Positions 1 to 23,867 of a stretch of DNA of 37,754 bases are shown piece by piece. How positions within the stretch are numbered: position 1 is the stretch's first letter; every line of letters starts with the position of its first letter. Made by a program: the position numbers and the translations under genes. The notes under the pieces were generated by a model. It was not told where the DNA came from. It saw only the letters and a list, made by a program, of their open reading frames with translations, and ran no database searches. Origin of the DNA: Rhodospirillaceae bacterium (GTDB lineage: Bacteria > Pseudomonadota > Alphaproteobacteria > Rhodospirillales > JABHCV01); NCBI GenBank assembly GCA_018671895.1, contig JABHGV010000010.1, positions 1 through 37,754 of the forward strand, read 5' to 3'.

Positions 1-3000
1 AAGGCCGACTCGTCCCTCAACAACAAGAAAATCGACATCGCCATCCGTCGCCCGGCGGGCGAGCCACAGACGGTCAACGTCACCACCAAACTGACGCTGG
101 CCGATATGATTCCAGGCGGTGCCAGTGTTCCCGGCCTGACCGATGTCGAATTTGATACCATTCAGGTGACCAAAGACACGGTCGACGTTACCGGCAAGCT
201 GAAAAAACTGGCCGTCGATATCGACCTGTTCAAGCCGGGCGCGGGGACCAAGGAACACGTCGCCGTTGCCTTCCCCGACACCTTCACCATCGCCACCTTT
301 ATCCCGCAGGTCTCAGGCACGCCGTTGGCCGACGCCGGTTTCAAGGACATGAGCTTTATCTGGACGCCGAAGGCCGATGCCGCCAAGACGGTTCAGATGT
401 CGGTGCTGCCCGATGACATCTCGAGCAATATCTCGAAATCTTCGAAAGCGTCTTCCGTCAGTCTGAAACCGGGCCTGACCGTATTCGGTAATCTGGAAAT
501 CAAGGCTGGCGATAAAATCGGCGACATGCTGAAAAAGATCGGCGTCAACGCCTCCAGCCTGCCTTTGAATGGCAGTCTCAGCACCGGCGTCTTCGCCAAG
601 GGAAATCTTGCCGACACATTACTGGATGCGCTGGATATTTCTGCACCGTTGCCAAAACTGTCGGTCAGTGGCGCGCCGGTTAAATTCAAGGACGGTCATT
701 TTGCCATCAAGGGCAAGCATGTGGACGGCAAGCGGTCCGTCGATGTTTCGGTAAAGGGCGAGGTTGATATCAACATCGCATCGAAAGCCATCGACTTCAC
801 CTTTGATATCGACATCAACAAGACCAAAGGTGGCAGCAGCGACATCACGATTACAGCCGACAGCACCAAGTCGGTGACGCTGCCGCTGTTCAAGAGTTTG
901 GCGCTGACCTCCATGGACCTGACGGCGACGCGCACCGGCGGCAAGTGGGATACCACCATCAAGGCTGACGCGAAAATGAAGGCCAAGGACATTGATGTCG
1001 TCATTCATCGTCCGTCAGGCGGTGCACAGGTCGTCAACATCACCACGACGCTGACCCTGGCAGACATGATTCCGGGTGGCGAGAGCGTGCCGGGCCTGAC
1101 CGATATCGAATTCGATACCATCGAGGTAACCAAGAACACCGTCGATTTGACCGGCAAGATCAAGAAGCTGGATGTCGGCGTTGCCCTGTTCAAGCCGGTG
1201 ACGGGTGCCAAGGAACACGTCGGCGTCACTTTCCCGAACGCCTTCACCATCGCGACGTTCATCCCGCAGGTCTCGGGCACGGCGCTGGCCGATGCCAGTT
1301 TCGAAGACATGACCTTTATCTGGACGCCGAAAAGCGGTGCGACACGTTCGGTCAAGGCATCTGCGCTGCCCGGCGAGGTGGGAACCGACGCGGCGAAATC
1401 GGCAAGCACAGTCAATTTAAAGCCGGGCCTCGCCGTGCTGGGCAATATCGATGTCAGTAAAAGCACCAAGATTTCGAACCTGCTGAAAAAGCTCAGCATC
1501 AGCAAGGACAAGCTGGCGCTGAACGGGGGCCTCAGCACCGGTATCTTCAAGAAAGGCAATCTGGCTGACACGCTTTTGGATGCGCTGGATATCACAGCGC
1601 CCTTGCCGGCCGTCTCGATTTCCGGCTCGCCCTTGTCGTTCAAGAAATCGCATTTCTCGATCAAGGGCAAACATGTGGATGGCAAGCGCGAAGTCGATGT
1701 TGCGCTGAAGGGCGATCTGGATTTCAAGATCGCATCGAAAGATATCAATTTTGCCTTCGTCGTCGATGCCACCAAGGAATCCGGTGCCGGTACCGATGTG
1801 ACGATCACAGCGGACAGCACGTCGGCAATCAAGGTGCCGTTCTTCGAGCCGCTGACGTTGACCTCCATGGACCTGACGGCGGCGCGCAAGGGCGGCAAGT
1901 GGACGACCACCGTGGATGCGGATTCCAAACTGAACAACAAGGACATCGATGTCACCGTTCACTTCGATCCCAAGGCGGGACGCAGTGCCGTCATCAAAGC
2001 CAACCTGACACTGGCCGACCTGATGCCGGGCGGTGGACATATTCCCGGCCTCAGCGATATCGGCTTTACCAGCGCCAACATGAACAACAAGTTTGCCTCG
2101 TTCACCGGAAGCATCAAGAAACTGTCGACGACGATCACGACGTTCAAACGCGGCCCCGGCAGCAAGCGCCACATCGGTGTTACCTTCGGCGATTTCGATG
2201 TCGCCAGCTTTATTCCCGGTGCCGAGCACACGCCGCTAAAAGACGTCACCTTCGATGGTGCGACGTTTATCTGGGCACCGAAGGGCTCGGCGGAAAACAA
2301 TGTCGCGACCAATGTGTTCCCGAAACCACTGGCAGCCGGGCTGACCCGGGCCGGCCGCACCACGCAGGACCTGAAAGCCGGGCTTAACCTGTTCGCCCAT
2401 CTGGTGGCGAAACCCAGCGGTACCATGGAAAGCCTGATGAAGGACGTCGGCGTTTCGGCGGCCAGTTTCAAGCTCGGCGGCGGGCTCAGCTCGCAAGTGT
2501 TTAAAAAGGGCATTTCGGGTTCCGCCATCAAGAACGCCATTATGAAAAGTCTGGATCTGAAACTGCCGATCCCGACGCCGAAAATTCCGGGCCTTTCCAG
2601 CATCGTCGCGTTCAAGAATGGTCACCTGCGCATTCGCGGCACGCGGCCTGACAAAACCATCGGCCTGGATGTCGGGGTGTCGGGTGATGTCGATGTGCAC
2701 ATCAAGGGCCACACGCTGGACTTCTACGTCGATGTGGAAGACACCAAAGAGGCTGGCGTTAAAGACTTCACCATAACCGGCGACACGCTGACGCCGTGGA
2801 ACAAGCCGTTCGGCATTCACTGGCTTGATCTGAAAAAACTGGCGCTGACCGTCGATAAAAAGACCGGGGCCGGGACCGACAAGTTCTCGATCAAGGTGGC
2901 GGCCAAGGTCGATGTGGGGTCGAACTCCAACATGGACATCACCGCCGTGGTCAAGGAAAGCAACGGCAAGGTCACCGACGCGTATTTCGAAATGGACGGG

Positions 3001-6000
3001 CCGCTGAAACTCAGCGACATCCCGGAAATTAACCGCATCCCGAATTCCAGCAAGTTCACGCTGACCAAGCTGATCGTTTCCGAACACGGCATCGAGGCAG
3101 ATAGCACAATTGGTGGGCGCGCCACCGACGCCTTTGTCTTTACCGGATCGGGCTGGAACATCGCGCTGACGCAGAAAGACTTCGCCCTGACCGAGTTGAT
3201 TCACGGCCTGAAGGAAACGCCGCTGAAATACATCAAGCTGCCACACGCCGCCGTGGTGCTTAGCGAAACCGGCATCAGCAACAAGCCCTTCAATCAGCTG
3301 AACAAGGTCGCCCAGGACGCCATGAAGGACATCTTTGGCGGCACCGGCGGCATGGTCAACATCAAGAAGGGGCTGGCCGTTATCGCCAGTTTCGATCCTG
3401 CAGGGGCAGGATCCATGAAAAAGGCCATCAACGGCATCGGGGTGCATGAAAAAGTCGTCATCATGGGCGAGATCGGCGGCATCTTCGGCGGCTCGCCGAT
3501 GATCAATCTGGTCGGCACTCTGTCGTCTGCCGGCAAGCCCGGCAATATGCCGAAGTTCATGAAGCTGTCGAAAAACGACCAGTTGGACTTTTTCCTCTCC
3601 GTTCTGGAAACCGAAGGCGACTTCGATTTCGAACTGGGCCTGGGCGTCGGCTTTACCGCCAAGGTCAAGGATAAAACCCTGGAATTCCTGGGCAAGGTCA
3701 AGATCCAGATCATGGATGAAGGCTTCGGCATCGACATCGTCGGCAAGATGGAGGGCCTGTGGCACAAGCCGTTTGATATTCCCGGGTTCTCGCTGGGCGA
3801 CGTAACCATCGAAGCCGGAACACAGGAAGACGGCGCCATCAAGCTGGGCTTCGCCGGCACCACCGTTATCGCCAACGACAAGTTCACCATGGCGGCGGAT
3901 GCCGAATTGTTGCCCGAGGCCCTGGGCGCACCGCAAGCCATTGCGTTTAAGGCGACGGCGGATGAAATACCCATGTTCTTCTTGGAACAGGTGGCCCTGA
4001 GCGTCACCGGCAAGGTGGTAAAATTCGAGATGCCCAAGGGCATCCTGCCGGTGTTCAAAAAGGTCAGTTTCGCCTTCGCCACACCGGGCTCCGCAGACCC
4101 GGATCTGGGCATTACCGGCGAAGGCTTCGGCATGGCCGGACAGATGGACTGGCTGGGCCATGAACTGGGCTCGATGAAAGTGTCCATCGGCCCGACCTCG
4201 GGCCTTTACGCCAACGCCGCGATTGATGACCTGAACCTGGGTCCCCTGCACCTGAAGGACAACAACTTCACCATGAAGGCGGTGCCGCTGAAGGTTCCGA
4301 CCCTGAAGCTAAATTCCAATATCAAGTTCATCGGCATCAAGGAAAACGTCCACGTCAAGTTCGATGCCAAGGGTGTTACTTTCAAATCCGATGTCAAATT
4401 CGGCAAGGATTTCGGCATGAAGACCGATCTGGAGCTGAAGGGCATCGACCTTAGCGCCACCCACCCGAGTTTCAAGCATGCCGACTTCTTCATGTCGGGT
4501 GATTTGAAACTGGATATTGGCAAGTTCATCGCCGGTCCGGCGACGAAGGCCATCAATGATGCGTTGGGGGAACTGAACAAGGCATTTAAAAAGGGTGAGG
4601 CGGACGTCAAGAAGGCCCAGAAAAAGGTCGACCACCTGACCAACAAAATCAATGCCGAGCGGGCCAAGGTGCGCCGCGAGAGGGCCCATGCCGAGGCCCG
4701 GGTGCGCAGCGCCGAAAACCGGGTCAACAGCCTGACCAACAGCATCAATTACGACTGGCACCGCTATCACCACTGCCACGGCTGGAAGAAGGACTGGTGC
4801 AAGGCCAAGTGGGGCATTCGCGCCCGGTTCGAAGAAGGTGTGCGCTGGGGCGCCGATAAGATTCTCGATGCCGTCAGGGAACTGGTCGCTCACTTCCCCA
4901 TCGATCTGGACCCCGAAGTGGCCTTCTGGATTGGGTTGCGAGACTCCGCCAAGGGTGTGCTCTATGTCGCCGAAAAAGCCATTGAGGGACTGGATGATCT
5001 GGACAAGGTCGTTGAGAAAATCATCGACAAGCTGACCGGCGACCTGAAGAACTCCGTCAATATCAACAAGGCCAGCTTCAGCGGCGACCTGAAAGGCATC
5101 ATCGAGCATGATGCGCCGCTCGACCTGGCTATCGATGCGGAATTCTTCGGCCTTCACCTCAAGGATACCTTCGCCTTCAAGGTCAAGGATGTCCCCTACG
5201 ATGTCGAATACCTAGGGCTGATGGGGCTGATTGCGCTGGATGACTTGCTGGTTAAAGGCATTGTCGACATGACAAAGCCGCTGAAGAACAAGATCGTCGG
5301 TGTCGTTTCCAAGAACATCGAAAAGAAAATGGCTGCGGTAAAGCGGGAGCTGGCGAAATACGCGGCGAAATTCAACAAATATAATGCGACGGCAGCCGCC
5401 ATCCAGGCTCGCAACGCCGCCTTTAATAAAGAATATATCAAGGCACAGATGGCGAAGAACCAAAGCCCCATCGATTACGATCCGAAAAGCCAGACCTTTA
5501 AGGACGAATTCATGGAGATCGGTCATTCCGGCCTGTGTCTGACCGCTGATAGCGGCACCCTGATGCAATACAACTGCGGCAGGGACGACAAGAAGGCCTC
5601 TCAAAAATGGACCACCAAGCCGGTCAAAGACAAAGATGTCGCCAAATACGGATATGTTTACCTGACCCAGGGCAGCGGCTGTGTCGCGCCCGAGGGTAAA
5701 TGGAAGAATGTGGAGAAAAAATTCGGCGAGTTCAGCTTCCCGGAACCTGAATTCCAGGGCGATGGAAACATCGTCGTCGGCGGTTGCGATGAGTCGAAGG
5801 AGTATTTCTGGAAAATTCTGAAACACGGCGATCACTGGCTGTACATAGCCAACCGTGCGACGGGTCAGTGTCTGGTGTTCAATGATTCCAACGCCGTGCC
5901 CGGCAAGGCAAAAGCCAACTGGGCGCCATGCACTGGCTCTGCCAACGAGGTCTTCCGCATCGCCGATTCCGTGACGCCGAAGTATTATCACGCCAACATG

Positions 6001-7200
6001 CTGTTGCGCAGCGACTCCGGCGGCAAATGCTTCGGCACGCCGAGAGACAAAGACGGCTATTCGCCGATGGTCGATTGCAAGCATGGCGCGCGTTACGATT
6101 ACCTGATTGACATCCGCGGCGACGTCCGGTTCGTCAACCGCACCACCGGCAAGTGCCTGCAACCGAAAGGCTACAAGGAAACAGACAAGGTGTTCGAGAA
6201 GACCTGCACCCAACTGGATTTCCAGTGGTGGTCGCCGATCCAGGTGCCGGGCGGTTGGATGATCCGCAACGCCCAGACCAACTGGTGTACGGAATCCGTC
6301 TATTGGGGCAAGTCCCCGGATGTTCAGCAGGGCGTCTGCAAGAATTACGGCTACAACGTCATCACGCCGGTGTTTGCTCCCGAGACAGGTGTTCTGTGGG
6401 AACCGGTCTCGACGGCGGCATTCCCGTCAAACCGGGTCAAGTTTGATACCGCCTATACCATCAAGGAACGCGAGGCCAAATACACCCTGAAAATCCATAA
6501 CGAGGAACGGGCCAAACTGGCGCGCCTTGAAGCTAATGAGAAATGGGCAGCCGCCCACAAAGAGAAACAGTGCAATCCCACCGCCAATTACTGGCTGCGA
6601 TACTGGCGGGCGCGGCTGCACGTCGGTGGCTGGTTCGCCGACATAATCCGGTTAAAGGCGCGGGCCGAAATCGACGCCATTCTCGGTAGTGGCTGGTGCA
6701 AGATAAAACTCGATCCGTGGGCGAAAAAGAATGTCCAAGTCGACGATTACGACATCAAGGTCATTCAGGCACGCCTGAAAAAGAATGTCGTGCCGCCGCC
6801 GGAACCCAAATGGTATGCGTGCCGGGCCTTTGATCGGGCATACGAAGCCTGGGTGCCCGGCGTCGTCGATAATCGCAAGTGTGTTTTCGTCGAACCGTGG
6901 TCGGGCAGGGTCAAATCGGCGACCAAATATGATATTGTCTATGACGCGGTAGACGTACAATGGGTACGCAACACCGGCGGCCATTTGCCCACATACGCGA
7001 TCCCGATGGGCAATACCACTAGGCCAAAGGACAACACCCTGTATTCATGCCGCACCATGGTCGACACCAAGACCTTTGTCGGCTGGACCTCATTGGGCAA
7101 GAAATGCTGGTACGAAAAGGTCGGGCCCAAGCACTCGACCAACTTCGAGGTGCTCAGTCGCGATTCCAGAACCGTCTACAAGCTGGATTTGGGTGACTGA
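1..7200 (+). CDS. Giant repeat-containing protein with C-terminal coiled coil, ricin-B-like and DM9-like regions (5' partial)
   Basis: The frame is open from base 1, and the first codons match the end of an earlier repeat, so the start lies outside the window; at least 2,399 residues are present. Long beta-rich repeats of about 320 residues each begin near a PGG-x(3)-PGL-(T/S)-D motif. A charged coiled coil follows (bases about 4555-4760), with a Cys/His-rich turn after it. Bases about 5500-6400 show repeated GxCL...QxW-like segments typical of ricin-B beta-trefoil lectins. The last 130 codons hold two DM9/DUF3421-like units (CRA...PG...C...Y and CRT...C...F). Such domains in other proteins bind carbohydrate. 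I infer an exported, surface-acting protein; the N-terminal signal would be off-window. The stop overlaps the next start (TGATG), so it is co-translated with the cytochrome gene. Function unknown. Confidence 0.85.
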   Translation, partial: KADSSLNNKKIDIAIRRPAGEPQTVNVTTKLTLADMIPGGASVPGLTDVEFDTIQVTKDTVDVTGKLKKLAVDIDLFKPGAGTKEHVAVAFPDTFTIATFIPQVSGTPLADAGFKDMSFIWTPKADAAKTVQMSVLPDDISSNISKSSKASSVSLKPGLTVFGNLEIKAGDKIGDMLKKIGVNASSLPLNGSLSTGVFAKGNLADTLLDALDISAPLPKLSVSGAPVKFKDGHFAIKGKHVDGKRSVDVSVKGEVDINIASKAIDFTFDIDINKTKGGSSDITITADSTKSVTLPLFKSLALTSMDLTATRTGGKWDTTIKADAKMKAKDIDVVIHRPSGGAQVVNITTTLTLADMIPGGESVPGLTDIEFDTIEVTKNTVDLTGKIKKLDVGVALFKPVTGAKEHVGVTFPNAFTIATFIPQVSGTALADASFEDMTFIWTPKSGATRSVKASALPGEVGTDAAKSASTVNLKPGLAVLGNIDVSKSTKISNLLKKLSISKDKLALNGGLSTGIFKKGNLADTLLDALDITAPLPAVSISGSPLSFKKSHFSIKGKHVDGKREVDVALKGDLDFKIASKDINFAFVVDATKESGAGTDVTITADSTSAIKVPFFEPLTLTSMDLTAARKGGKWTTTVDADSKLNNKDIDVTVHFDPKAGRSAVIKANLTLADLMPGGGHIPGLSDIGFTSANMNNKFASFTGSIKKLSTTITTFKRGPGSKRHIGVTFGDFDVASFIPGAEHTPLKDVTFDGATFIWAPKGSAENNVATNVFPKPLAAGLTRAGRTTQDLKAGLNLFAHLVAKPSGTMESLMKDVGVSAASFKLGGGLSSQVFKKGISGSAIKNAIMKSLDLKLPIPTPKIPGLSSIVAFKNGHLRIRGTRPDKTIGLDVGVSGDVDVHIKGHTLDFYVDVEDTKEAGVKDFTITGDTLTPWNKPFGIHWLDLKKLALTVDKKTGAGTDKFSIKVAAKVDVGSNSNMDITAVVKESNGKVTDAYFEMDGPLKLSDIPEINRIPNSSKFTLTKLIVSEHGIEADSTIGGRATDAFVFTGSGWNIALTQKDFALTELIHGLKETPLKYIKLPHAAVVLSETGISNKPFNQLNKVAQDAMKDIFGGTGGMVNIKKGLAVIASFDPAGAGSMKKAINGIGVHEKVVIMGEIGGIFGGSPMINLVGTLSSAGKPGNMPKFMKLSKNDQLDFFLSVLETEGDFDFELGLGVGFTAKVKDKTLEFLGKVKIQIMDEGFGIDIVGKMEGLWHKPFDIPGFSLGDVTIEAGTQEDGAIKLGFAGTTVIANDKFTMAADAELLPEALGAPQAIAFKATADEIPMFFLEQVALSVTGKVVKFEMPKGILPVFKKVSFAFATPGSADPDLGITGEGFGMAGQMDWLGHELGSMKVSIGPTSGLYANAAIDDLNLGPLHLKDNNFTMKAVPLKVPTLKLNSNIKFIGIKENVHVKFDAKGVTFKSDVKFGKDFGMKTDLELKGIDLSATHPSFKHADFFMSGDLKLDIGKFIAGPATKAINDALGELNKAFKKGEADVKKAQKKVDHLTNKINAERAKVRRERAHAEARVRSAENRVNSLTNSINYDWHRYHHCHGWKKDWCKAKWGIRARFEEGVRWGADKILDAVRELVAHFPIDLDPEVAFWIGLRDSAKGVLYVAEKAIEGLDDLDKVVEKIIDKLTGDLKNSVNINKASFSGDLKGIIEHDAPLDLAIDAEFFGLHLKDTFAFKVKDVPYDVEYLGLMGLIALDDLLVKGIVDMTKPLKNKIVGVVSKNIEKKMAAVKRELAKYAAKFNKYNATAAAIQARNAAFNKEYIKAQMAKNQSPIDYDPKSQTFKDEFMEIGHSGLCLTADSGTLMQYNCGRDDKKASQKWTTKPVKDKDVAKYGYVYLTQGSGCVAPEGKWKNVEKKFGEFSFPEPEFQGDGNIVVGGCDESKEYFWKILKHGDHWLYIANRATGQCLVFNDSNAVPGKAKANWAPCTGSANEVFRIADSVTPKYYHANMLLRSDSGGKCFGTPRDKDGYSPMVDCKHGARYDYLIDIRGDVRFVNRTTGKCLQPKGYKETDKVFEKTCTQLDFQWWSPIQVPGGWMIRNAQTNWCTESVYWGKSPDVQQGVCKNYGYNVITPVFAPETGVLWEPVSTAAFPSNRVKFDTAYTIKEREAKYTLKIHNEERAKLARLEANEKWAAAHKEKQCNPTANYWLRYWRARLHVGGWFADIIRLKARAEIDAILGSGWCKIKLDPWAKKNVQVDDYDIKVIQARLKKNVVPPPEPKWYACRAFDRAYEAWVPGVVDNRKCVFVEPWSGRVKSATKYDIVYDAVDVQWVRNTGGHLPTYAIPMGNTTRPKDNTLYSCRTMVDTKTFVGWTSLGKKCWYEKVGPKHSTNFEVLSRDSRTVYKLDLGD
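106..3018 (+). repeat. Three consecutive ~960-1000 bp coding repeats in the giant gene
   Basis: Units begin at 106, 1066 and 2020, with spacings of 320 and 318 codons; a diverged fourth unit starts near 3019. Units one and two are strikingly similar in both protein and DNA (for example the LADMIPGG, FTIATFIPQVSGT and IKGKHVDGKR blocks). Unit three is clearly weaker and unit four is recognisable only by its block order. Bases 1-105 are the tail of a further unit upstream. Confidence 0.8.
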
Positions 7201-8927
7201 TGGCGCTTCGGCAAACATACCGGGCCTTGGCCCTGATGGCGGCGCTTTTCGCCGCCTCTGGGTCTGTCGGTGTGGCGCTGGCCGACAGCCCGGCGCAGTT
7301 TGACGGCGAGGGAAATCTGACCCGCCCCGGTGATTACCGCGAATGGGTGTTTTTGGGTGCCAAGGTGATGGCCAACGACCTGAACTATGGCGCCACCTAT
7401 TCGCCGGGTATCCATGCCACCTATATGGACCCGGCCAGCTTTGCCCATTGGAAAAAGACCGGTGAATTCCGCCCCGGCACCGTTCTGGTGCGCGAAACTG
7501 CGGCCATTGGCGAGACTGAATTCATGAGCGCCAACGGATACTTCCCCGGTGACTTCGACGGGCTTCAGGCGATGGTCAAGGACCCGGCGCGCTACCCCGA
7601 CACCGAATGGGGATTTTTCAGCTTCGGCAAGCCGCCCTATGCCGAGAAGGTTCCTGTGGCCAAAGGCATGGGCGAACTGGATTGCGCTGGATGCCATACG
7701 GACGCCGATACCGATTGGGTGTTTACGCAATTTTACCCGGTCCTGATGGCCGCTGCGCCGACCCGAAAAAGCAAGGCGCAGATACTGTATGAACGCAACT
7801 GGACCCCGGCCACCGCGGACGCGGATTCTCTGGGCGATGGCCTGGGGCCGTTGTTCAATGCGCGTTCGTGCGATGCCTGCCACCCGAAGGGTGGGCGCGG
7901 AACGTTTGCCTTTAAAGATGATGGCGTTATCGATGGCGACGGGTTGTTGCTGCGCGCCGGGCTGGGCAAGACCGGCGACCCGATTTACGGCATGCAGATT
8001 CAACAAAAAGCCGTCACCGGCCAGCGCGCCGAGGGCATTCCCGCCGTCCGCTTTACCGATGTTGTCGATGCGACCGGAACGGTGTTGCGCAAACCGCACT
8101 TCGAACTGCGGGGCCGGGCCTATGGCGGCCTGCACGACAAGACTGTGCTGGCCGGGCGGGTCTCGCCGTCGGTGTTCGGCAATGGTGCGCTGGAACGCGT
8201 TCCCGTCGCGCATCTGGAAAATCTCGCCGATCCCGATGACGCCGATGGCGATGGAATTTCCGGGCGTCTTAATCGCCATCGCCTGGACCTTAGCGGCAAA
8301 ACGGTTGTCGGGCGCTATGGCTGGAAGGCAGCCCAGTGGTCTTTGAAGGTGCAGACGGCGAAGGCCCTGCGCATGGACATGGGGCTGTCGACGCGGATGA
8401 TGGGACCGGCGTGGGGCGATTGCACATCGGTTCAAACCGATTGCCACTCGGCCGTTCATGGCGAGGCAACTGGCCCGGAAGGTCGCGAGGTCGGGACTTA
8501 CGAAGTTGACCTGATTACTCGCCATGTGGCGGCATTGGCCGCACCGGAACGACGTGGCGATAAGCCTGAGGGCGAAAAACTGTTCGCCGCTACCGGGTGC
8601 GCCGCCTGTCATGTGGAAAGTCTGCCGACCGATAAAGATGGTCGCATCGCCGCCTACACAGATTTGCTGTTGCATGACTTGGGGCCGGGGCTGGCCGATG
8701 GTCTGGTCGAAGGGGTGGCCAGCGCCAGCGAATGGCGGACGGCGCCGTTGATGGGCCTTGGTGGCCTGATGAAGAACAAAGCGCCGCTGTTGCACGATGG
8801 CCGGGCCCGCGATGCTCATGAAGCAATTTTGTGGCACGACGGCGAGGCGCGCTCTACTGCGGATGCCTATCGTAACCTTGATGACAAAGATCGCCGGGCG
8901 TTGCTCGGCTTTCTGGAGACCCTGTAG
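7200..8927 (+). CDS. Cytochrome P460-like / DUF1111 di-haem oxidoreductase fusion
   Basis: A 575-residue exported c-type cytochrome. Residues 1-29 form a Sec signal peptide ending in VALA. Residues about 40-185 look like a cytochrome P460 domain: a YREWVFLG start, GTVLVRE, WGFFSF, a first CxxCH at 162-166 and a following VFTQFYP. The remainder matches the DUF1111 'di-haem oxidoredictase' family: GLGPLFNARSCDACH with CxxCH at 224-228, the GRYGWKAAQWSL block, a third CxxCH at 467-471, and the closing HDLGP, EWRTAPLMG and LHDGRA motifs. P460 enzymes oxidise hydroxylamine-type substrates and DUF1111 proteins resemble MauG/di-haem peroxidases; the substrate here is unknown. The ATG overlaps the upstream stop by one base and the stop abuts the next ATG, so it is in an operon. 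The domain fusion is unusual. The P460 assignment is from motif order only. Confidence 0.85.
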   Translation: MALRQTYRALALMAALFAASGSVGVALADSPAQFDGEGNLTRPGDYREWVFLGAKVMANDLNYGATYSPGIHATYMDPASFAHWKKTGEFRPGTVLVRETAAIGETEFMSANGYFPGDFDGLQAMVKDPARYPDTEWGFFSFGKPPYAEKVPVAKGMGELDCAGCHTDADTDWVFTQFYPVLMAAAPTRKSKAQILYERNWTPATADADSLGDGLGPLFNARSCDACHPKGGRGTFAFKDDGVIDGDGLLLRAGLGKTGDPIYGMQIQQKAVTGQRAEGIPAVRFTDVVDATGTVLRKPHFELRGRAYGGLHDKTVLAGRVSPSVFGNGALERVPVAHLENLADPDDADGDGISGRLNRHRLDLSGKTVVGRYGWKAAQWSLKVQTAKALRMDMGLSTRMMGPAWGDCTSVQTDCHSAVHGEATGPEGREVGTYEVDLITRHVAALAAPERRGDKPEGEKLFAATGCAACHVESLPTDKDGRIAAYTDLLLHDLGPGLADGLVEGVASASEWRTAPLMGLGGLMKNKAPLLHDGRARDAHEAILWHDGEARSTADAYRNLDDKDRRALLGFLETL

Positions 8928-10520
8928 ATGAAACGGCTGTTTGCATCGTTGGCGCTGTTCGCCGTGGTTTCCGTGTCCGCCACGGCAGCCCCGATGCCCA
9001 ACTTCGTGGCTGCGACCGGCAGCGGAGTCAACCACGGCTACAACGGTGACAACTTGTTCATGACTGGCGGAGGTGTCGCCGCCTTTGATTGTTCCGGCGA
9101 TGGTCAACCCGACATGTATTTAGCAGGCGGCGCGTCGCCTTCATCGCTTTTCATCAATCGCAGCAAGACCGGTGGGGAATTAAAATTCTCCCCCGTCGAT
9201 GACAGCCCAATGACTCTCGACAACGTCACCGGGGCTTATCCACTGGATATCGATGGCGATGGCATTACCGACCTGGCGGTATTGCGCATTGGCGAGAACG
9301 TCTTGTTCCGGGGCCTGGGCGATTGCAAATTCGAGCGCGCCAACGAAGCCTGGAAATTCGATGGCGGCGACGGCTGGACGGTCGCGTTTTCCGCAACCTG
9401 GGAACAGGGCCGTGATTGGCCGACGCTGGCCATTGGCAATTTCATGGACCGTGAAACCATCATTATGGATTATGGCGATTGCGATGCCAGCTGGTTGTTC
9501 CGGCACAATCCCGGTACGGGATATCAAAACCCGATGGCATTGCAGCCGGGCCATTGCACCAATTCGATGCTGTTTTCCGATTGGAACCGCGACGGCTTCG
9601 CCGACCTGCGGGTCTCGAACGATCAGGAATTTTACCGCCGGGGTTCCGAACAGTTGTTCAGTCTTGGTCCCCGCGGGGCCGTGCCGATGCAGGCCGAAGA
9701 TGGCTGGCGCACGGTCAATATCTGGGGCATGGGCATCGCGTCCAACGACATCACCGGCGATGGATACCCGGACTATTATCTGACCAATATGGCCGCCAAT
9801 CGTTTCGAGGTTCTGGCCGAAGGAGCCACCGGGCCGTCTTACGAAGACCGGGCAGGGGATTTCAACATTGCCGTGGCCAAGCCCTTTACCGGCGGCGACA
9901 TCGACCCGTCGACGGCATGGCATACGGAATTCGCCGACGTCAATAATGATGGCCTTTCCGACCTGCTGGTGGTTAAGGGAAATGTCGTCACAACCAGTGC
10001 CAATGCCAAGGCCGATCCTAACAACCTGTTGATTCAAACAGCAGATGGCGGCTTCGTCGAGGCGGCAAAGGTGGCGGGTGTGCTCAGTTTCCGGGTCGGG
10101 CGCGGCGGCGCGCTGGTCGACCTGAACGCCGACGGGGCGCTCGATCTGGTTGTCAGCAATCGCAACGATTCGTCGGAAATCTGGCGCAACACTGCGGCCA
10201 ACACCGGCAACTGGCTAAAACTGCAACTCAAACAGCCGGGCGGCAATACCCGCGCCGTCGGCGCCTGGGTCGAGGTTCGTACAGGCAATCACACCCAGCG
10301 CCGCGAAGTCACCGTCGGCGGCGGTCATGCTGGTGGGCAATGGGGCGCACTGCATTTCGGCCTTGGTGATGCCAAGCAAGCCCGCATCCGGGTTCAGTGG
10401 CCGTTTGGCGGCTGGAGCGACTGGCATGACGTCACGGCCAATACCATCACATCCATCACACGCAAGAATCCCAAAACGATGGCCTCGCGATCGCGCGGCG
10501 CTAAAGGAGAGAGACCATGA
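8928..10520 (+). CDS. CRTAC1-family FG-GAP/VCBS protein with ASPIC/UnbV C-terminus
   Basis: A 530-residue secreted protein with a signal peptide at residues 1-21 (cleavage near ATAA). The body holds several FG-GAP/VCBS-type calcium-binding loops of the DxxGDGxxD kind (DCSGDGQPD, DIDGDGITD, DWNRDGFAD, DITGDGYPD, DVNNDGLSD, DLNADGALD), which implies a seven-bladed beta-propeller. Residues about 420-505 match the ASPIC/UnbV domain (NWLKLQL, GAWVEVRTG, HFGLGDAKQARIRVQWPFG). This domain pair is the CRTAC1 family, often found beside DUF1111 or other c-type cytochrome genes; no enzymatic role is established. The ATG follows the upstream TAG with no gap, and its own TGA overlaps the next ATG, so it is translationally coupled on both sides. 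I infer a periplasmic or exported partner of the cytochrome. Confidence 0.85.
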   Translation: MKRLFASLALFAVVSVSATAAPMPNFVAATGSGVNHGYNGDNLFMTGGGVAAFDCSGDGQPDMYLAGGASPSSLFINRSKTGGELKFSPVDDSPMTLDNVTGAYPLDIDGDGITDLAVLRIGENVLFRGLGDCKFERANEAWKFDGGDGWTVAFSATWEQGRDWPTLAIGNFMDRETIIMDYGDCDASWLFRHNPGTGYQNPMALQPGHCTNSMLFSDWNRDGFADLRVSNDQEFYRRGSEQLFSLGPRGAVPMQAEDGWRTVNIWGMGIASNDITGDGYPDYYLTNMAANRFEVLAEGATGPSYEDRAGDFNIAVAKPFTGGDIDPSTAWHTEFADVNNDGLSDLLVVKGNVVTTSANAKADPNNLLIQTADGGFVEAAKVAGVLSFRVGRGGALVDLNADGALDLVVSNRNDSSEIWRNTAANTGNWLKLQLKQPGGNTRAVGAWVEVRTGNHTQRREVTVGGGHAGGQWGALHFGLGDAKQARIRVQWPFGGWSDWHDVTANTITSITRKNPKTMASRSRGAKGERP

Positions 10521-12409
10521 AGAAACCTGTTCCAGGTATGTTATTATCCAAACTAACGAGTCGATTAAAGGGGGGGCATCAGATGCTCAAAGCTAGAAAT
10601 TTCCTGTTCGTGTTGATCAGCGCCGGGTTGCTGGTTGGCTGTCAAACGACACCGGACACTCTGTCCAGTAAGTACAAGGCCGACGACGTCGATTTCATGA
10701 CATTGGTCAAGAATGTTAAATCGGATCGTCTGGGTGATGATTACATCCGCGCGGGTCTGGAACTTCTCGACAAGCAGGATTACATCCACGCGACCAAGGC
10801 CTTTAACAAGGCGCTTAAGTTTGACCCGACCGATGCCAATCTGCATTTCCTCAACGCGTTGACCTATCATCTGCGTGCCATGGCGGGCGACTCCAGCCAG
10901 CTCGACATGGCCAAGGTCGGCTATGGCCTGGCCCTGCAATATGACGCCAGCAATTACTGGGCGGCCTATCAACTGGGGCAGATCAGTTATGACGAACAGC
11001 GGTATCGTGACGCCCAGGATGCCTTTGCCTATTCCTTGCTGTATGCACCGGAAAACCCGGACCTGCTGCGCGCCCTGGCGACGGCATCTTATAATGCTCA
11101 GGATCTGGAAACGGCCCTGTCGGCTATCTACAAGGCATCTGAACTGCGCCCCGACGATGAAGGCATCATCTATGACAGCGCGCTGATCAATGCGGCCGCC
11201 GGGCGCATGCCCATGGCCGAGGCCGATCTGGTTTCCTATACGCAGACCGCAGGCGCGGCCAATCCGTTCCGCGAGAAGCTGTTGACCAACCGCCTTGGAG
11301 ACTGGCGCAGGTTCCACAAGGAAAACAAGTTCTTGAAAAAGGTCCAGTCGACGTCCGATATCTTCGGTTCTAAAGCGACGTCGGAAGGCCTGAAACCCAG
11401 TGCAAGTTCCTCGTCGTCTTCGAAAAAGGGCAAGGATCGTTCGACCCGCATGGCGCTGGTCGATGTGGTTATCATCCGTTCAGAAGAACGCCTGACCACC
11501 AACAAGGGTGTCAACCTGCTCAGTGGCCTGTCGGCGACACTCGGAGGCACGTTGACCTTTAACAAGGTTGATGCCCACCATGGCGATGTCGTCTCCAGCG
11601 TCACCAACAACCTGACCTGGGCACCGACGTTGACCTTCGCCTCGTCGGCCTATTCGTTGAACATCTTCAACGATAATAACGACCGCAACGAAGTGCTTGC
11701 GCGTCCGACTCTGGTCGCGCTGGATGGTAAAAAGTCCGAATTCTTCTCGGGCGCCGTCTGGCATGTTGAATTGACCGGATCGGCCGGCAGTGAAGGCGCG
11801 GTGCAGGATATCCCGGTCGGCATCAAGCTAGATGTAACGCCGGTTTTCCTGAGCGATGACAAGGTTGAGCTGAATGTCACGGCGGCCCGTGCCTTCGTTG
11901 AAAATCGGTCCTCGACGGCCAACTTCAACAACTTCGCACAGACCACCAAGACCTTGCTAACCGCTAACGTCGCCATGAAATTTGGTGAAACGTTGATCCT
12001 GTCGGGGCTTAGCGAAAAGGAAAGCGAAACGGTTCGTGACGGCGTGCCGTTGCTGCAGGATGTTCCTGTCGTACAGTACCTGTTTTCCAATGAAACGACG
12101 CTGGACTTCACCAAGTCGGTGCTGATCCTGTTGACCCCGCGTCAGCCGCGTTTCAGCCATGAAGACGGCACTGTCAAGGTCGACCCGGCAAATCCGCCGG
12201 ACGCCATGGCCAATCAGGAAAACCTGAAGGAACTGAAGAAAATGTCAGGGTTCCGTCCGGCCTCGACGGTCGACTCGGTGCTTTGGCACTTGCGTAACGG
12301 CAAGTACTTCAAGGAATTCCGTTCCGGCGATGTGCGTATGGAAAAATGGGATTATCCGAGCCGCCTCAATCGGATGATCGTTCGTACCATCGAGTTCCTC
12401 TACTACTAG
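10517..12409 (+). CDS. TPR-secretin outer-membrane lipoprotein (type II/III secretin family)
   Basis: Up to 630 residues. TPR-like helices cover residues about 75-260 and a Ser/Lys-rich linker lies near 290-310. From about 312 the protein matches the secretin C-domain: the VDVVIIRSEE start, ARPTLVALDGKKSEF, IPVGIKLDVTPVF, then KFGETLILSGL and LFSNETTLDFTKSVLILLTPR. Secretins form multimeric outer-membrane gates. A lipobox (LVGC) supports lipidation. Two starts compete: ATG 10517, with a strong AAGGAG and a four-base overlap with the upstream stop, or ATG 10583, which gives a standard 19-residue lipoprotein signal behind a G-rich ribosome site. I list the longer form. No gspE, gspC or pilus genes are near, so it is an orphan secretin that may export the proteins encoded upstream. 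Confidence 0.85.
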   Translation: MKKPVPGMLLSKLTSRLKGGHQMLKARNFLFVLISAGLLVGCQTTPDTLSSKYKADDVDFMTLVKNVKSDRLGDDYIRAGLELLDKQDYIHATKAFNKALKFDPTDANLHFLNALTYHLRAMAGDSSQLDMAKVGYGLALQYDASNYWAAYQLGQISYDEQRYRDAQDAFAYSLLYAPENPDLLRALATASYNAQDLETALSAIYKASELRPDDEGIIYDSALINAAAGRMPMAEADLVSYTQTAGAANPFREKLLTNRLGDWRRFHKENKFLKKVQSTSDIFGSKATSEGLKPSASSSSSSKKGKDRSTRMALVDVVIIRSEERLTTNKGVNLLSGLSATLGGTLTFNKVDAHHGDVVSSVTNNLTWAPTLTFASSAYSLNIFNDNNDRNEVLARPTLVALDGKKSEFFSGAVWHVELTGSAGSEGAVQDIPVGIKLDVTPVFLSDDKVELNVTAARAFVENRSSTANFNNFAQTTKTLLTANVAMKFGETLILSGLSEKESETVRDGVPLLQDVPVVQYLFSNETTLDFTKSVLILLTPRQPRFSHEDGTVKVDPANPPDAMANQENLKELKKMSGFRPASTVDSVLWHLRNGKYFKEFRSGDVRMEKWDYPSRLNRMIVRTIEFLYY

Positions 12410-12428
12410 ACAGAGAGAGGAATTTACC

Positions 12429-12932
12429 ATGAAAGCGATGGTCCATATCGGCCTCACCACGACCCTGCTTGTCGCCATGGCGACAGGCGGGGCGGTGGCG
12501 GCGGATTCCGATTATGTGTTCAAGGTCAAATCGACCATGCTGGGCGAGGTCAGCGAGTTCCGCAATGGTGGTAAGGAACTGGAAGAGTTGCGCACCTACA
12601 ATGTTGCCAACAATCCCATCTATATGACCAACGTCGAACAGCAGGCGTTGATGCCGCTGTATGATTTCCTGTCATGTGCCAAGTTGACCAACCCGACATC
12701 CGATCTGGAAATCAGTTCCGGTGGCGGCTTCGATATCACCATGACCAATATCAAATTTGCCCATGGCATGTGGCCGGTTGATATCAGGATAACTCAGATC
12801 GACCAGATTCATCTGCTAGAAAAAAACTCTGTCTACATTCTTCAAAGCTTTACCATCGGTGATACGGGCTTGTATGACCCGGACAAGCAGAAAGCGGCGA
12901 TGAAGATAATGTTGGGGAAGTGTCTGGATTAA
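12429..12932 (+). CDS. Small exported protein of unknown function
   Basis: A 167-residue protein with a clear Sec signal (residues 1-25, ending AVAA). The ATG is preceded by GAGAGAGGAA at 7 bp and lies 19 bp after the secretin stop, so it is the last gene of the operon. The mature part has two cysteines, one in the FLSCAKL segment and one at the C-terminal KCLD, that could form a disulfide. I see no family I can name. Its position after the secretin suggests a periplasmic accessory role such as a pilot or substrate, but nothing in the sequence proves this. A strong terminator begins 45 bp after the stop. Confidence 0.75.
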   Translation: MKAMVHIGLTTTLLVAMATGGAVAADSDYVFKVKSTMLGEVSEFRNGGKELEELRTYNVANNPIYMTNVEQQALMPLYDFLSCAKLTNPTSDLEISSGGGFDITMTNIKFAHGMWPVDIRITQIDQIHLLEKNSVYILQSFTIGDTGLYDPDKQKAAMKIMLGKCLD

Positions 12933-12976: not shown

Positions 12977-13020
12977 AACAAAACCCCGTCCAGGCCAGTG
13001 GCTCAGGCGGGGTTTTTGTT
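12977..13020. terminator. Bidirectional rho-independent terminator
   Basis: AACAAAACCCCG (12977-12988) pairs with CGGGGTTTTTGTT (13008-13020) around a 19-base loop. T-runs follow the stem on both strands, so it can end the five-gene operon on the + strand and a gene arriving on the - strand. Confidence 0.8.
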
Positions 13021-18069: not shown

Positions 18070-21000
18070 ATGGCGACCAGGCCGACGGATGGGGTCATAA
18101 ATAGAAGTCCCGGTGTTAAGCATGCATCGGCCAACATATCCACGTCGGCGACAGTCTTGATCGGCCTGATTGGCGCGTTCCTGTTGTTCAACTGGACGGC
18201 CAAGGAACAGCAACAACACGCCAAGGAAAAATTTGACGAGTTAAGCCTGCAGGTCGCCATCTCGCTGGGCAGGCAGATCGGGCGCAGTGAAGATTCCTTG
18301 ACCTCGGTAACGGCTTTTTTCTCCGGGTCCAAACATGTCGGCCGTGATGAATTCAGGGTGTTTGTCTCCAGGGCAGTATCCGGGCACGTCGGGGTGCAGG
18401 CTCTGGAATGGATTCCGAAAGTCCCGGATGCCGATCGCGCCATATATGAAGACAAGGCGCGCAAGGAAGGCCTGAAAGATTTTTCTTTCCGCCAGATCGG
18501 CGACGGCGGCTTGGTCGCGGCATCCAGACGGGGTGCGTACTTCCCGGTCTATTATATCGAGCCGATGGCTGGCAATCAGCGCGCCGTGGGCTTTGATCTG
18601 GCATCCAATCCAGTGCGCAAGGCGGCTTTGGAACAAGCCCGCGATACGGGGCAAATGGTGTCGAGCGCCCGGATCACGCTGGTGCAGGAAACGGCGAAAC
18701 AATCCGGCATCCTTGTTTTTGCGCCTATTTATTCCGAAGGCCTTCCGATCCGGACGGTCGATGAAAGGCGCCGGGCTTTGGCTGGCTTTGCCCTTGGTGT
18801 ATTTCGAATTGGTGATTTGCTCGAGGCTTCGATACCGGAGTCGATGTTGGGTGAAGATTTTGTAATCGCACTTTATGACGCATCGGATGCGGACAATCTT
18901 AGCCCCCTGCATCACATCGGGATTGACGATGGCAATCGTGTCCCCAACAGAGGCGATATTGCGGATGATCATCATTTTGAACAGGAGCTTTCCTTCGGCG
19001 GGCGGCAGTGGCATTTGGTCGTGACGCCGAAGAACGGGAAATTGCCGATTGAGCAATCTTGGGTTCCATGGCTCTTGGTGGCAGTGGTGCTTTTCATCAT
19101 GAGTCTGATCGGGGTCTATATCCAGTTGATCATGCGGCGCAGGGAATATGCCGAAATTCTGGTCAACGAACGGACCCGGGAACTGGATTTTCAAAAGTTG
19201 GCACTGGATGAACACGCCATCGTCAGCATCACCGACACCCGGGGCGATATTATCTACGCCAATGATAAGTTCTGCGACATCAGCGGCTACGCTCGCGACG
19301 AGATTATCGGCCAGAACCATCGTATTTTAAGATCAAGCGAGCATACCCCGGAATTCTACGACGACCTGTGGCGCACCATTGCCGCCGGCAAGACATGGCA
19401 GGGCGAAATCAAGAACCTGCAAAAGGGCGGCGGCTATTACTGGGTCAAGGCGACGATTGTGCCGTTCCTGAACGAATTGGGGAAACCGTTTCAATACGTG
19501 GCAATCCGCACCGATATTACCGAGCGTAAAAAGGCAGAAGAAACCCTGCATGAAACGACGGACCGGCTGTTGAATTCACAGCAAATCGCCCATGTCGGTT
19601 CGTGGGATTGGGACATTGTCGGCGGCGGTCTCGAATGGACCGATGAAATTTTCAACATCTTCGGACGCTCGCGCGATGACTTCGATTCCACCTACGAACA
19701 TTTCCTTGAATGCATTTACCCCGATGATCGCGACGAAGTCGTTGCCGCCGTCGGCGCGGCGGTTGAAAGCGATGTTCCGTACGACCTGGAACACCGGATA
19801 TTGCATCCAGATGGCTCTATTCGATACGTCCATGAAATGGGCCGCGTCTACCGGGATGAAGATGGATCCCCGGTTCGCATGCTGGGCATTGTTCACGACA
19901 CGACGGAACGCACTATCCTGGACCGGGCAAAGAATGAATTTGTCTCGACGGTCAGTCACGAACTGCGCACGCCGTTAACCTCGATCAAGGGGTCGCTCGG
20001 CCTGATCAAATCGGGCAACATTGGCGAGTTGCCCGATAAGCTGATGTCGATGTTGAACATCGCCTATAACAATTCCGACCGGCTGGTGCTGCTGATCAAC
20101 GATATTCTTGATATGGAAAAGATTGAAGCCGGCAAGATGGACTTCAACATGTGTCCGATGATTGTCGCCTCACTGCTTGCCGAGGCGATCGAGGCCAACA
20201 AGGGCTACGCCGACGAACATGACGTTACGTTTAAATGCATAGACTGTGATGAAGACTTGCAGGTCAATGGCGACAGGGACCGCCTGATGCAGGCCCTGGC
20301 TAACATCATGTCCAATGCTGCCAAGTTCTCAGGTGAAGGCGGGCAAGTTGAATTGTCCTTAAAGCGCCATGACGGGATGGTTCGCATTGCCGTCAGGGAT
20401 TACGGCGAGGGTATTCCTGAAGCCTTCCGCGACACGATATTCGATAAATTCACCCAGGCGGATTCGTCTGATACCCGTCAGAGTGGCGGCACCGGCCTTG
20501 GCCTCAGCATTACCCGATTGATTGCCGAACGACATAACGGAAATGTCTGCTTTGATACCGAAATCGGTGAGGGGACGACCTTCTACATTGATTTGCCGGA
20601 ACTTCGGGTCGCAACCAGGGTTTCGCAACCCAAGGTCAAGGGCCAGAGCCGCATTCTGATCTGCGAGGATGAAAATGATATCGCGACGTTGCTTGAAATG
20701 ATGCTGACGGAAGCGGGCTACAGCACCCGAACCGCCAGAACCGCAGCCCAAGCCCGGCAAATGCTCGCACAGGGAGACTGCGATGCGATGACCCTGGACC
20801 TGAACCTGCCGGATCAGGACGGCATATCATTGATTCACGAATTGCGAAGCCAGCCGGAAACCCAGTCGCTTCCGATCATCGTCGTCTCGGCTTCGGCCAG
20901 CGATGGCAAGCAGCAGATGAATGGCGACGCCATTGGTATAATCGACTGGATTCAGAAACCCATTGATCGCACACGGCTTGTCGAACGACTGGCCGATGCC

Positions 21001-21378
21001 TTGCGGGCGCGTTCCGGCAGTAAGCCACGCATCTTGCATGTGGAAGACGACGAAAGCATCATTCAGGTGGTCACGTCCCTTGTCGATGAAACGGCGGATA
21101 TCATTCCGGCGATGACGGTCGGGGAAGCCAGAACCATTCTTGAACAGGACACCTTCGATCTTGTCATTCTTGACCTGACGTTGCCCGATGGCGATGGCAG
21201 CGAATTGCTGCCACTGCTCAGCAACGCCGATGGACCGTCGACGCCGGTGGTTATTTTCTCGGCCATGGATGTGTCGCGCGAAACATCCAAAACGATCAGC
21301 GCGGTATTGACCAAGTCACAGACATCCAACGACGAGTTGCTCAGCACCATTCGTTCTGCGATCGAGTCGAGGACGTAG
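18070..21378 (+). CDS. CHASE-PAS-PAS hybrid sensor histidine kinase with two receiver domains
   Basis: 1,102 residues. A first membrane helix (28-42) and a second (about 332-354) bracket a periplasmic CHASE sensor domain (about 85-290). In the cytoplasm come PAS (about 375-490), PAS_3 (about 500-612), a HisKA domain with phospho-acceptor H630 in the SHELRTPLTS box, a HATPase with N749, DYGEGIP from D777 and GGTGLGLS, then receiver one with D910 and receiver two with D1035. It should autophosphorylate on H630 and pass phosphate to D910; no Hpt domain is present. In receiver two the usual conserved lysine lies in VLTKSQ. CHASE domains sense small extracellular molecules; the ligand is unknown. 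GGAG sits about 9 bp before the ATG. No partner regulator is adjacent. Confidence 0.95.
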   Translation: MATRPTDGVINRSPGVKHASANISTSATVLIGLIGAFLLFNWTAKEQQQHAKEKFDELSLQVAISLGRQIGRSEDSLTSVTAFFSGSKHVGRDEFRVFVSRAVSGHVGVQALEWIPKVPDADRAIYEDKARKEGLKDFSFRQIGDGGLVAASRRGAYFPVYYIEPMAGNQRAVGFDLASNPVRKAALEQARDTGQMVSSARITLVQETAKQSGILVFAPIYSEGLPIRTVDERRRALAGFALGVFRIGDLLEASIPESMLGEDFVIALYDASDADNLSPLHHIGIDDGNRVPNRGDIADDHHFEQELSFGGRQWHLVVTPKNGKLPIEQSWVPWLLVAVVLFIMSLIGVYIQLIMRRREYAEILVNERTRELDFQKLALDEHAIVSITDTRGDIIYANDKFCDISGYARDEIIGQNHRILRSSEHTPEFYDDLWRTIAAGKTWQGEIKNLQKGGGYYWVKATIVPFLNELGKPFQYVAIRTDITERKKAEETLHETTDRLLNSQQIAHVGSWDWDIVGGGLEWTDEIFNIFGRSRDDFDSTYEHFLECIYPDDRDEVVAAVGAAVESDVPYDLEHRILHPDGSIRYVHEMGRVYRDEDGSPVRMLGIVHDTTERTILDRAKNEFVSTVSHELRTPLTSIKGSLGLIKSGNIGELPDKLMSMLNIAYNNSDRLVLLINDILDMEKIEAGKMDFNMCPMIVASLLAEAIEANKGYADEHDVTFKCIDCDEDLQVNGDRDRLMQALANIMSNAAKFSGEGGQVELSLKRHDGMVRIAVRDYGEGIPEAFRDTIFDKFTQADSSDTRQSGGTGLGLSITRLIAERHNGNVCFDTEIGEGTTFYIDLPELRVATRVSQPKVKGQSRILICEDENDIATLLEMMLTEAGYSTRTARTAAQARQMLAQGDCDAMTLDLNLPDQDGISLIHELRSQPETQSLPIIVVSASASDGKQQMNGDAIGIIDWIQKPIDRTRLVERLADALRARSGSKPRILHVEDDESIIQVVTSLVDETADIIPAMTVGEARTILEQDTFDLVILDLTLPDGDGSELLPLLSNADGPSTPVVIFSAMDVSRETSKTISAVLTKSQTSNDELLSTIRSAIESRT

Positions 21379-21459: not shown

Positions 21460-22266
21460 ATGACCAACAGAAAACCGCCTGAGCGGGATACTGCGCCACA
21501 GGCGAATTTGCTGCCTTATCAGGACCTTATCAACAATGTCACCGTTGAGGACGTCTTCGGCTGGCTTGCCAAGGGCTGGCACGATTTCAAGGCTGGCGGC
21601 CTTGTCAGCCTGGGGTACGGTCTGGTTTTCGTGGTCGCGGCCATTGTCCTGACGGTCGGTTTGTACCTGGCCGGGTTCGAATATCTGATCGCGCCGTTTC
21701 TTGAAGCCTTTCTGTTTATCGGCCCGGCGCTGACGGTCGGCTTTTATGCCATCAGCCGCGAACTGGAACAGGGTAAAAAGATGACGCTGGCAGGCGCGTT
21801 GTGTACGTGGTGCAACAACACCAAGGCCCTGTTGACGTTCGGTCTGGCGCTGGTGATCTTCCTGCTGATCTGGATGCGTCTGGCGGTGATGATTTTCGCC
21901 TTGTCGTTCCCCTACACACCGATGGAGATACAGCCGATCATCAATGCCGTGTTCTTTTCCGGCGAAGGCTACGTTTTTCTGGTTCTTGGCAGCGCCGTCG
22001 GCGCAGTGATGGCGACATTGGTGTTCATGGGGTCAGTGGTGGCACTGCCGATGATTCTCGATCGCGGCGTCGGTTTTGGCCAAGCCCTGGTGGTCAGCTT
22101 TGTGACCGTGATTACCAACTTCCGCGCGATGATGGCGTGGGCAATCATTATCGTCATTGTTACCGGGGCTGGGCTGCTGGCAGGCTTTATCGGCCTTGCC
22201 ATCTCCCTGCCGCTAATTGGTCATGCCAGCTGGCATGCCTATCGGGGGCTGGTTAAACCGGAATAG
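21460..22266 (+). CDS. DUF2189-family membrane protein (copy 1)
   Basis: A 268-residue polytopic inner-membrane protein with about six hydrophobic helices. It matches the DUF2189 family: an early GWLAKGWHDFKAGGLVSLGYG block, FIGPALTVGFYAISRELEQG, and a final LPLIGHASWHAYRGLV. The family has no fixed function but is common near alphaproteobacterial cbb3 oxidase genes. A paralogue with the same blocks lies at the other end of the oxidase region (31226-32008). It ends 119 bp before ccoN with no convincing terminator between, so some ccoN transcription may come through from this gene's promoter. A role in oxidase or haem membrane assembly is an inference from position. Confidence 0.85.
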   Translation: MTNRKPPERDTAPQANLLPYQDLINNVTVEDVFGWLAKGWHDFKAGGLVSLGYGLVFVVAAIVLTVGLYLAGFEYLIAPFLEAFLFIGPALTVGFYAISRELEQGKKMTLAGALCTWCNNTKALLTFGLALVIFLLIWMRLAVMIFALSFPYTPMEIQPIINAVFFSGEGYVFLVLGSAVGAVMATLVFMGSVVALPMILDRGVGFGQALVVSFVTVITNFRAMMAWAIIIVIVTGAGLLAGFIGLAISLPLIGHASWHAYRGLVKPE

Positions 22267-22330: not shown

Positions 22331-22361
22331 CACTTGATATACTCCCCGCCATCATCAAGTG
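22331..22361 (+). promoter_or_regulatory. Inverted repeat in the ccoN leader
   Basis: CACTTGAT (22331-22338) and ATCAAGTG (22354-22361) are perfect inverted copies 15 bases apart, 24 bp before ccoN. Each contains an FNR-type half-site (TTGAT/ATCAA), but the spacing is 15 rather than 4, so it is not a canonical FNR/FixK box. As RNA it would form an 8-bp hairpin near the ribosome site. A second, AT-rich palindrome, TTATC-N5-GATAA, is at 22272-22286. Confidence 0.5.
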
Positions 22362-22385
22362 CCACCTATGAGGAGCCGAAACCCT

Positions 22386-23855: not shown

Positions 23856-23867
23856 AGGAAAGACGTC

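Follow-up and report, generated by a model that had tools for sequence, protein, structure and literature searches.

The stretch of DNA analysed here (the window, 37,754 bp) is one entire contig (JABHGV010000010.1, C80) of the Rhodospirillaceae bacterium assembly GCA_018671895.1 (G000), a genome of 2.5 Mb in 98 contigs that is 98.5% complete. Its left part displays five co-directional open reading frames (ORFs), which we confirmed at the positions given in an initial annotation of this DNA. Two of their products are at the centre of this work: a giant exported repeat protein (the giant) and a lipoprotein in which tetratricopeptide repeats (TPR) are joined to a secretin domain (the TPR-secretin). 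The features are as follows.

1..7200, plus strand: gene 1, giant exported protein, of which the C-terminal 2,399 aa lie in the window (ORF; Pfam domains DM9 and ricin-B)
7200..8927, plus strand: gene 2, signal peptide and a fusion of cytochrome P460 with DHOR (DUF1111), three CxxCH haem motifs, accessory (Pfam domains DHOR and P460)
8928..10520, plus strand: gene 3, signal peptide, FG-GAP propeller and UnbV/ASPIC, CRTAC1-like, accessory (Pfam)
10517..12409 (alternative start 10583 possible), plus strand: gene 4, TPR-secretin lipoprotein (Pfam domains Secretin and TPR)
12429..12932, plus strand: gene 5, small exported protein of 167 aa without a Pfam or NCBIfam family
12980..13017, plus strand: probable intrinsic terminator closing the operon (hairpin read by eye)

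The junctions are as tight as the initial annotation had described. The giant stop and the P460 start share 1 bp (TGATG), the P460-DHOR and CRTAC genes abut at 8927/8928, the CRTAC and secretin genes overlap by 4 bp with the secretin start placed at 10517, and 19 bp separate the secretin from the small gene. The 4-bp overlap is conditional on the start, because a second candidate codon at 10583, behind a G-rich tract, would give a shorter and classical lipoprotein signal. The single terminator thought to close the set corresponds to the hairpin at 12980-13017; a consensus scan does not list it, its loop exceeding the length limit of the scan. The co-occurrence search proposed with that annotation was run and recovered the gene order from other genomes as well. 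The same five genes are present in a second genus (genome G003, locus L033) with junctions of -1, 0, -4 and +12, while a third locus (L052) has the giant, P460-DHOR, CRTAC and secretin in the same order with gaps of 26, -4 and 131. Since it is conserved in a second genus and, for four genes, in L052, the arrangement is more than chance.

The window part of the giant contains four repeats of about 320 aa (REP; aa 30-310, 351-627, 668-952 and 1002-1273), followed by a ricin-B lectin domain (aa 1946-2076) and a DM9 domain (aa 2271-2375). The window being a whole contig, the leftward extension of gene 1 was taken from another one, C75, where a 1,944-aa ORF with a signal peptide and six REP runs to the right end of the contig. 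Compared with the window giant, this ORF displays 75-86% identity in three places and 29-50% in two. The G003 orthologue is a single 4,404-aa frame with ten repeats, to be compared with six on C75 and four on C80, and the giant would reach about 4,350 aa if the two parts are joined. Because the contig ends have no exact overlap, the joining is only inferred; most likely, C75 carries the N-terminal part of the giant. Export signals had been proposed for four of the five products, and by eye we observed a signal peptide or lipobox on each of these. With the C75 ORF taken as the N-terminus of the giant, export is predicted for every one of the five products. In the window part of the giant the 20 cysteines are all found after residue 1400, as would fit an oxidising compartment.

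One repeat (window aa 335-653) was modelled with AlphaFold2 as long antiparallel strands, with a predicted local distance difference test score (pLDDT) of 87.7 and a predicted template modelling score (pTM) of 0.81. No Foldseek match was obtained at E <= 0.001 among solved structures (best 0.074). The best VIA Z, 6.2, was to a BamA barrel (root-mean-square deviation 4.9 over 125 residues), and no fold was assigned. A phmmer search of the window part against the PDB gave no matches, and a two-repeat alignment (A3) was judged out of register and discarded. One could picture the giant as a periplasm-spanning lipid or glycan conduit, a repeating beta-sheet ending at the secretin, and the predicted long strands, with up to 17 copies of the repeat in one protein, would suit such a shape. 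However, no lipid-transfer protein stood out among the solved structures compared with the repeat model, the lectin domains sit at the far end and the signal peptide is the only membrane element seen, so that we hold a conduit to be highly improbable.

The TPR-secretin and the search for a motor

The window TPR-secretin has an LVGC lipobox (aa 39-42, Cys42), TPR at about aa 76-250, a Secretin domain at aa 387-542 and an FRxGD motif near the C-terminus (aa 601-605). The Secretin domain (PF00263) scores 96.3-99.8 bits against a curated cut-off of 27.5 and covers model positions 4-166 of 169. The TPR stand in place of the usual N-terminal domains of secretins, and Pfam detects neither Secretin_N nor any other secretin domain besides Secretin in the gene 4 protein. 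None of the NCBIfam models reaches its cut-off on this protein: GspD scores 64.4 vs 351.35 bits, PilQ 74.7 vs 284.35, and SctC 49.1 vs 238.45, other type III secretion genes not having been searched for. The PilW model also stays below cut-off (37 vs 154 bits, residues 33-247) and its match is a lead only, weak matches being common among unrelated TPR proteins. Matches in the PDB cover either the secretin or the TPR part, with none spanning both among the best 60 of 72. In an alignment of 16 orthologues the FR-x-GD motif is invariant, as are many residues of the Secretin domain; over the 80 loci described below, the exact motif is found in 73 and variants such as LRTGD or YRTGD in the other seven. 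Judged by these sequence features, the gene 4 family is a member of the secretin superfamily.

The TPR-secretin is the sole secretin in G000. In this genome T2SSF gave no match, and T2SSE reached 17.8 bits, below its cut-off of 24.9, in an 869-aa ORF; the initial annotation had noted no type II secretion system (T2SS) or Tad gene with this set, and no motor or platform of either kind was found off-window. Two further genomes, G056 and G050 (listed completeness 100% for each), likewise have one secretin each, the TPR-secretin. They show no T2SSF match, and their T2SSE matches are confined to ORFs of 350 and 355 aa, respectively, which appear too short for GspE and rather VirB11-like. Altogether, no usual motor, that is, neither a T2SSF platform nor a full-length motor ATPase, was found in G000, G056 and G050. 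The other 12 TPR-secretin genomes tested comprise 11 with T2SSF and one without (G019), the latter only 63% complete. One may imagine that the TPR-secretin serves a conventional machine (T2SS, Tad or pilus) whose genes lie elsewhere in the genome, given that T2SSF proteins occur in 11 of the 15 TPR-secretin genomes examined and that most of those checked have other secretins too. Against this stand the three genomes that encode no secretin besides it and in which neither T2SSF nor a full-length T2SSE was found, and the lack of a Pfam Secretin_N domain in the gene 4 protein, and we consider such a hidden machine improbable.

The closest known systems compare as follows. GspD of the T2SS shares the Secretin domain, and among the secretin matches in the PDB the GspD chains rank first; unlike GspD, the window protein has TPR instead of the usual N-domains and stays far below the cut-off of the GspD model. 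HxcQ offers a parallel for the lipid anchor predicted by the lipobox: it is described in PMC3542185 as a lipidated, self-piloted secretin that reaches the outer membrane without a pilotin. Type IVa pilus secretins use pilotins that are themselves TPR lipoproteins, as stated in PMC10653833. The pair of PilQ and its pilotin PilF/PilW/Tgl thus has both parts of the window protein, which are here fused in one chain, and the T2SSF platform is missing from G000, G050 and G056.

RcpA/CpaC of the Tad pilus has a TPR lipoprotein, TadD. RcpA (8odn) is also among the PDB secretin matches, whereas G000 has no T2SSF and no T2SSE over cut-off. Two-partner secretion (FhaB/FhaC) relies on an Omp85 barrel with POTRA and on a TPS (two-partner secretion) domain. 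It resembles the present operon in coupling a Sec-exported giant surface-type protein to one dedicated outer-membrane protein; the latter is a secretin here and not an Omp85 barrel with POTRA, and no Omp85/POTRA or TPS match was found by Pfam (E <= 0.001) in the window part of gene 1 and in gene 4, the C75 part lying outside that scan. BcsC, PgaA and AlgK/AlgE are TPR and barrel glycan exporters, similar in joining a TPR domain to an outer-membrane pore but different in the type of pore, and no synthase was recognised in the window. The TPR-secretin family fails the tested features of T2SS, Tad, type IV pili and two-partner secretion, and no description of it was found in the open-licence PMC literature.

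Relatives and partners of the TPR-secretin

A scan of named genome contigs yielded 182 TPR-secretin relatives, of which the best 80 were taken as loci. The neighbourhood counts given here are over 80 non-redundant loci, namely 78 named ones, the window and G003. L056 (a copy of L055) and L109 (a copy of L108) were left out, as were L034-L049, which come from order-sample genomes and in many cases lie on the same contigs as named loci. Relatives are found in the cultured isolates Magnetovibrio blakemorei MV-1, Kiloniella spongiae, Terasakiella brassicae, several Thalassospira and Glaciecola sp. KUL10, and in many metagenome-assembled genomes, most of them from Pseudomonadota, with Magnetococcales represented; the Elusimicrobia label of L055 and the Acidimicrobiaceae label of L075 may reflect binning errors. 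In a sample of the phylum the TPR-secretin was detected in 12 of 398 genomes (E <= 1e-30), and it is therefore uncommon but broad in the phylum.

The association with the giant was followed in two samples. Among the 60 genomes of the order sample, 15 have a TPR-secretin (E < 1e-50), 11 a giant and eight both (Fisher p = 2.8e-4, uncorrected for kinship), and in each of these eight a giant and a TPR-secretin are at most three genes apart. In the phylum sample, where at most five candidates were scored per genome in the giant-repeat search, the giant repeat was found in two genomes (G000, G073) and Tectonin in one (G415), the latter count being a lower bound because the search overlooked G050, although tectonin-like neighbours are present at its loci L044/L121. 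All three belong to the 12 TPR-secretin genomes; the giant or Tectonin gene adjoins it in G073 and G415, and two genes lie in between in the window. G073 shares only the phylum with the window genome. There, a 7,070-aa ORF (C1:14543-35755), the largest seen, starts 94 bp after the TPR-secretin and carries 17 REP matches together with F5/8-type C and ricin-B domains; this genome has a second TPR-secretin with a pentapeptide partner. In six other genomes of the sample (G077, G085, G089, G120, G184 and G223) an exported protein follows the secretin that is pentapeptide-tagged or alike at its N-terminus, and in G371 and G235 the contig ends behind the TPR-secretin.

Four partner types were scored over the 80 loci, within two genes of the secretin or three for giants. 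At least one type is near the secretin in 59 loci and on its strand in 55, with tectonin in 27, exported pentapeptide-repeat proteins in 21, giant/ricin-B in 17 and DM9 in seven (overlaps allowed). The pentapeptide rule, based on length and density, misses L072, L077, L078, L099 and L125, which were labelled pentapeptide by hand for the tree described below. Some proteins combine the classes: the L087 tectonin has giant repeats and a ricin-B match, and that of L119 has an F5/8-type C domain and giant repeats. Some loci mix them, with giant and pentapeptide (L061, L070) or DM9 and pentapeptide (L095, L107) side by side. The partner classes are therefore tied together. When the partner labels are mapped on a tree of 83 secretins, 17 changes are required, compared with a mean of 47.1 for shuffled labels, and none of 200 shuffles was as low; the labels were assigned by hand, and near-copies or related sequences inflate this statistic. 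An apparent giant-secretin fusion of 3,284 aa in L063 was dropped, as the ORF is an out-of-frame extension in GC-rich DNA; a REP-bearing ORF lies there in another frame.

We also scanned with Pfam the 129 other same-strand neighbours of 140-1,000 aa from 65 loci, with giants, tectonins and secretins left out. Pentapeptide repeats (24), NMT1-like binding proteins (12), SBP_bac_3 (10) and AraC-type helix-turn-helix domains (9) were recovered, and no T2SS family is among the best 25 of the 90 families matched. The NMT1-like periplasmic binding protein gene of L065 (8751-9773, Pfam-checked) overlaps the TPR-secretin gene by 4 bp, as do ORFs of NMT1-like type or size placed ahead of the secretin in L064, L084, L090, L091, L097 and L110. 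Behind the secretin and a small protein, L034 (1366-7234; the contig is that of L050) encodes a hybrid kinase of 1,790 aa in which SBP_bac_3 occurs in four stretches, which suggests a possible ligand-controlled regulation. Directly after betaproteobacterial TPR-secretins lies a related family of 755-1,042 aa (L081:11714-13981, L094:4495-7623, L118:4108-5535) with signal-like N-termini, one of which is cut by the contig end; the L081 member has no Pfam match, and the family is a possible further partner type. Genome G059 has several giant-repeat genes (contigs C53, C49 and C35), one directly before a TPR-secretin on the same strand and another two genes away on the opposite strand, the remaining ones lying elsewhere.

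Gate or anchor

We propose, with about even confidence, that the core of the operon is a two-gene surface-display system in which the secretin would serve as a gate for its giant partner without the usual motor. The giant would reach the periplasm via Sec by means of the signal peptide on C75. The TPR-secretin, as a lipoprotein, would target itself to the outer membrane and oligomerise into a gate, as its domain suggests; its TPR region could act in cis like the separate TPR-lipoprotein pilotins, catch the partner, or both, and may select it. Either the whole giant or at minimum the C-terminal part with the lectin domains would then be passed to the surface or held there without a GspE/GspF-type motor, the drive possibly coming from folding outside or from glycan binding, and the ricin-B and DM9 domains on their long beta-repeat stalk would bind glycans outside the cell. 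That anything is exported through the TPR-secretin we infer from sequence data.

More broadly, and only tentatively, the family may define a separate and so far undescribed secretion route in Gram-negative bacteria: TPR-secretins, many of them lipidated and self-piloted, would work without a motor, and the TPR would decide which partner passes, be it a lectin-tipped beta-repeat giant of 7,000 aa, a tectonin propeller or a pentapeptide-repeat protein.

The TPR-secretin could instead be an outer-membrane anchor or scaffold and no gate, its TPR holding the partner in the periplasm or at the inner leaflet so that nothing crosses. TPR domains are established protein-binding modules, the TPR part is kept while the partners differ widely in size and fold, and the neighbour scan, with its lack of T2SS families among the best matches, is in line with this. 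A mere anchor would not need the near-complete Secretin domain with its many invariant residues, however, and the lectin domains of the partners would probably meet little ligand in the periplasm. We therefore regard the anchor as rather unlikely.

Several observations weigh against a gate dedicated to the giant. Lipidation does not extend to the whole family: a loose lipobox pattern is present in 58 of the 80 members, and some betaproteobacterial ones (L089, L095, L107) start with a plain signal peptide. The giant has no strict need for the TPR-secretin, because giants occur in G009 (99% complete), where no secretin match was obtained, G030 has a standalone giant and only a secretin ORF of an unrelated type, and in G007, where no TPR-secretin was found, a fragment of a giant lies at the edge of a contig. 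Conversely, seven of the 15 TPR-secretin genomes of the order sample have no giant match, some giants of G059 are not near any TPR-secretin, and in the same genome the TPR-secretin on C20 has none in the 19.5 kb read. Besides, 21 of the 80 loci have no partner type by the rule, some of them being contig ends or loci labelled pentapeptide by hand, the pentapeptide partners are not known lectins, and neither the repeat nor the small protein has a clear solved relative.

The secretins that have been studied in depth are parts of machines that include an inner-membrane motor or assembly platform. A sole secretin in genomes without such a motor, with lectin-type partners, would, if true, separate the gate from the motor and offer a simple two-gene system in which to ask what a secretin needs for passing a giant protein. 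A family that has had no name, present in marine isolates such as Thalassospira and Magnetovibrio, would thereby gain a function, and there would be an explanation for the arrival of proteins of 4,000-7,000 aa at the surface of these bacteria.

Accessory genes and neighbouring features

The P460-DHOR/CRTAC pair stands between giant and secretin in three mapped loci only, namely the window, L033 and L052, and is for that reason considered accessory. The three CxxCH motifs of the P460-DHOR protein are kept in its two orthologues. CRTAC homologues occur in four of the 60 order-sample genomes. In G029 (L206) one lies directly after an ORF weakly matching P460-DHOR (37 bits), and no secretin was present in the 14 kb of sequence read there; G010 has relatives of P460, DHOR and CRTAC on separate contigs. 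The initial annotation had proposed a dedicated route that places a redox complex and the giant outside the cell. The pairing of giant and orphan secretin is recurrent and this part of the idea stands. A place of the redox proteins in the core found no support, and a redox complex as core function was rejected. A route in which the secretin exports P460-DHOR and CRTAC and the giant displays them would fit the gene order and close spacing that two genera share, with a third locus lacking the small gene, and the export signals on all products. Nevertheless, the pair is restricted to those three loci, relatives of its parts are found in genomes without the arrangement, and other TPR-secretins have unrelated partners, so that we doubt this route strongly. 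In the two-gene surface-display system that we prefer, the pair would be a redox module added in one sublineage.

The small protein would likewise be a lineage-specific accessory, as it is confined to few loci: besides the window, relatives stand beside the secretin in L033, L050 (= L034) and L054 (= L035), and in L045 one lies 48 bp behind a giant. Its model (pLDDT 77.5, from three alignment rows) has a compact alpha/beta fold after the signal peptide; no match at E <= 0.001 was obtained among solved structures (best Z 4.0) and no fold was assigned. Neither for the repeat nor for the small protein does the lack of a match imply a new fold.

Further along the window, a cbb3 oxidase operon (22359-31197) encodes COX1, FixO, FixP, FixH and a FixI-type P-type ATPase and is followed by FixG after a DsbD_2 gene on the opposite strand. 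Two DUF2189 membrane proteins (21460-22266 and 31163-32008) flank this block, and beside the cbb3 genes, at 18070-21378, lies a CHASE-PAS-histidine kinase with two receiver domains.

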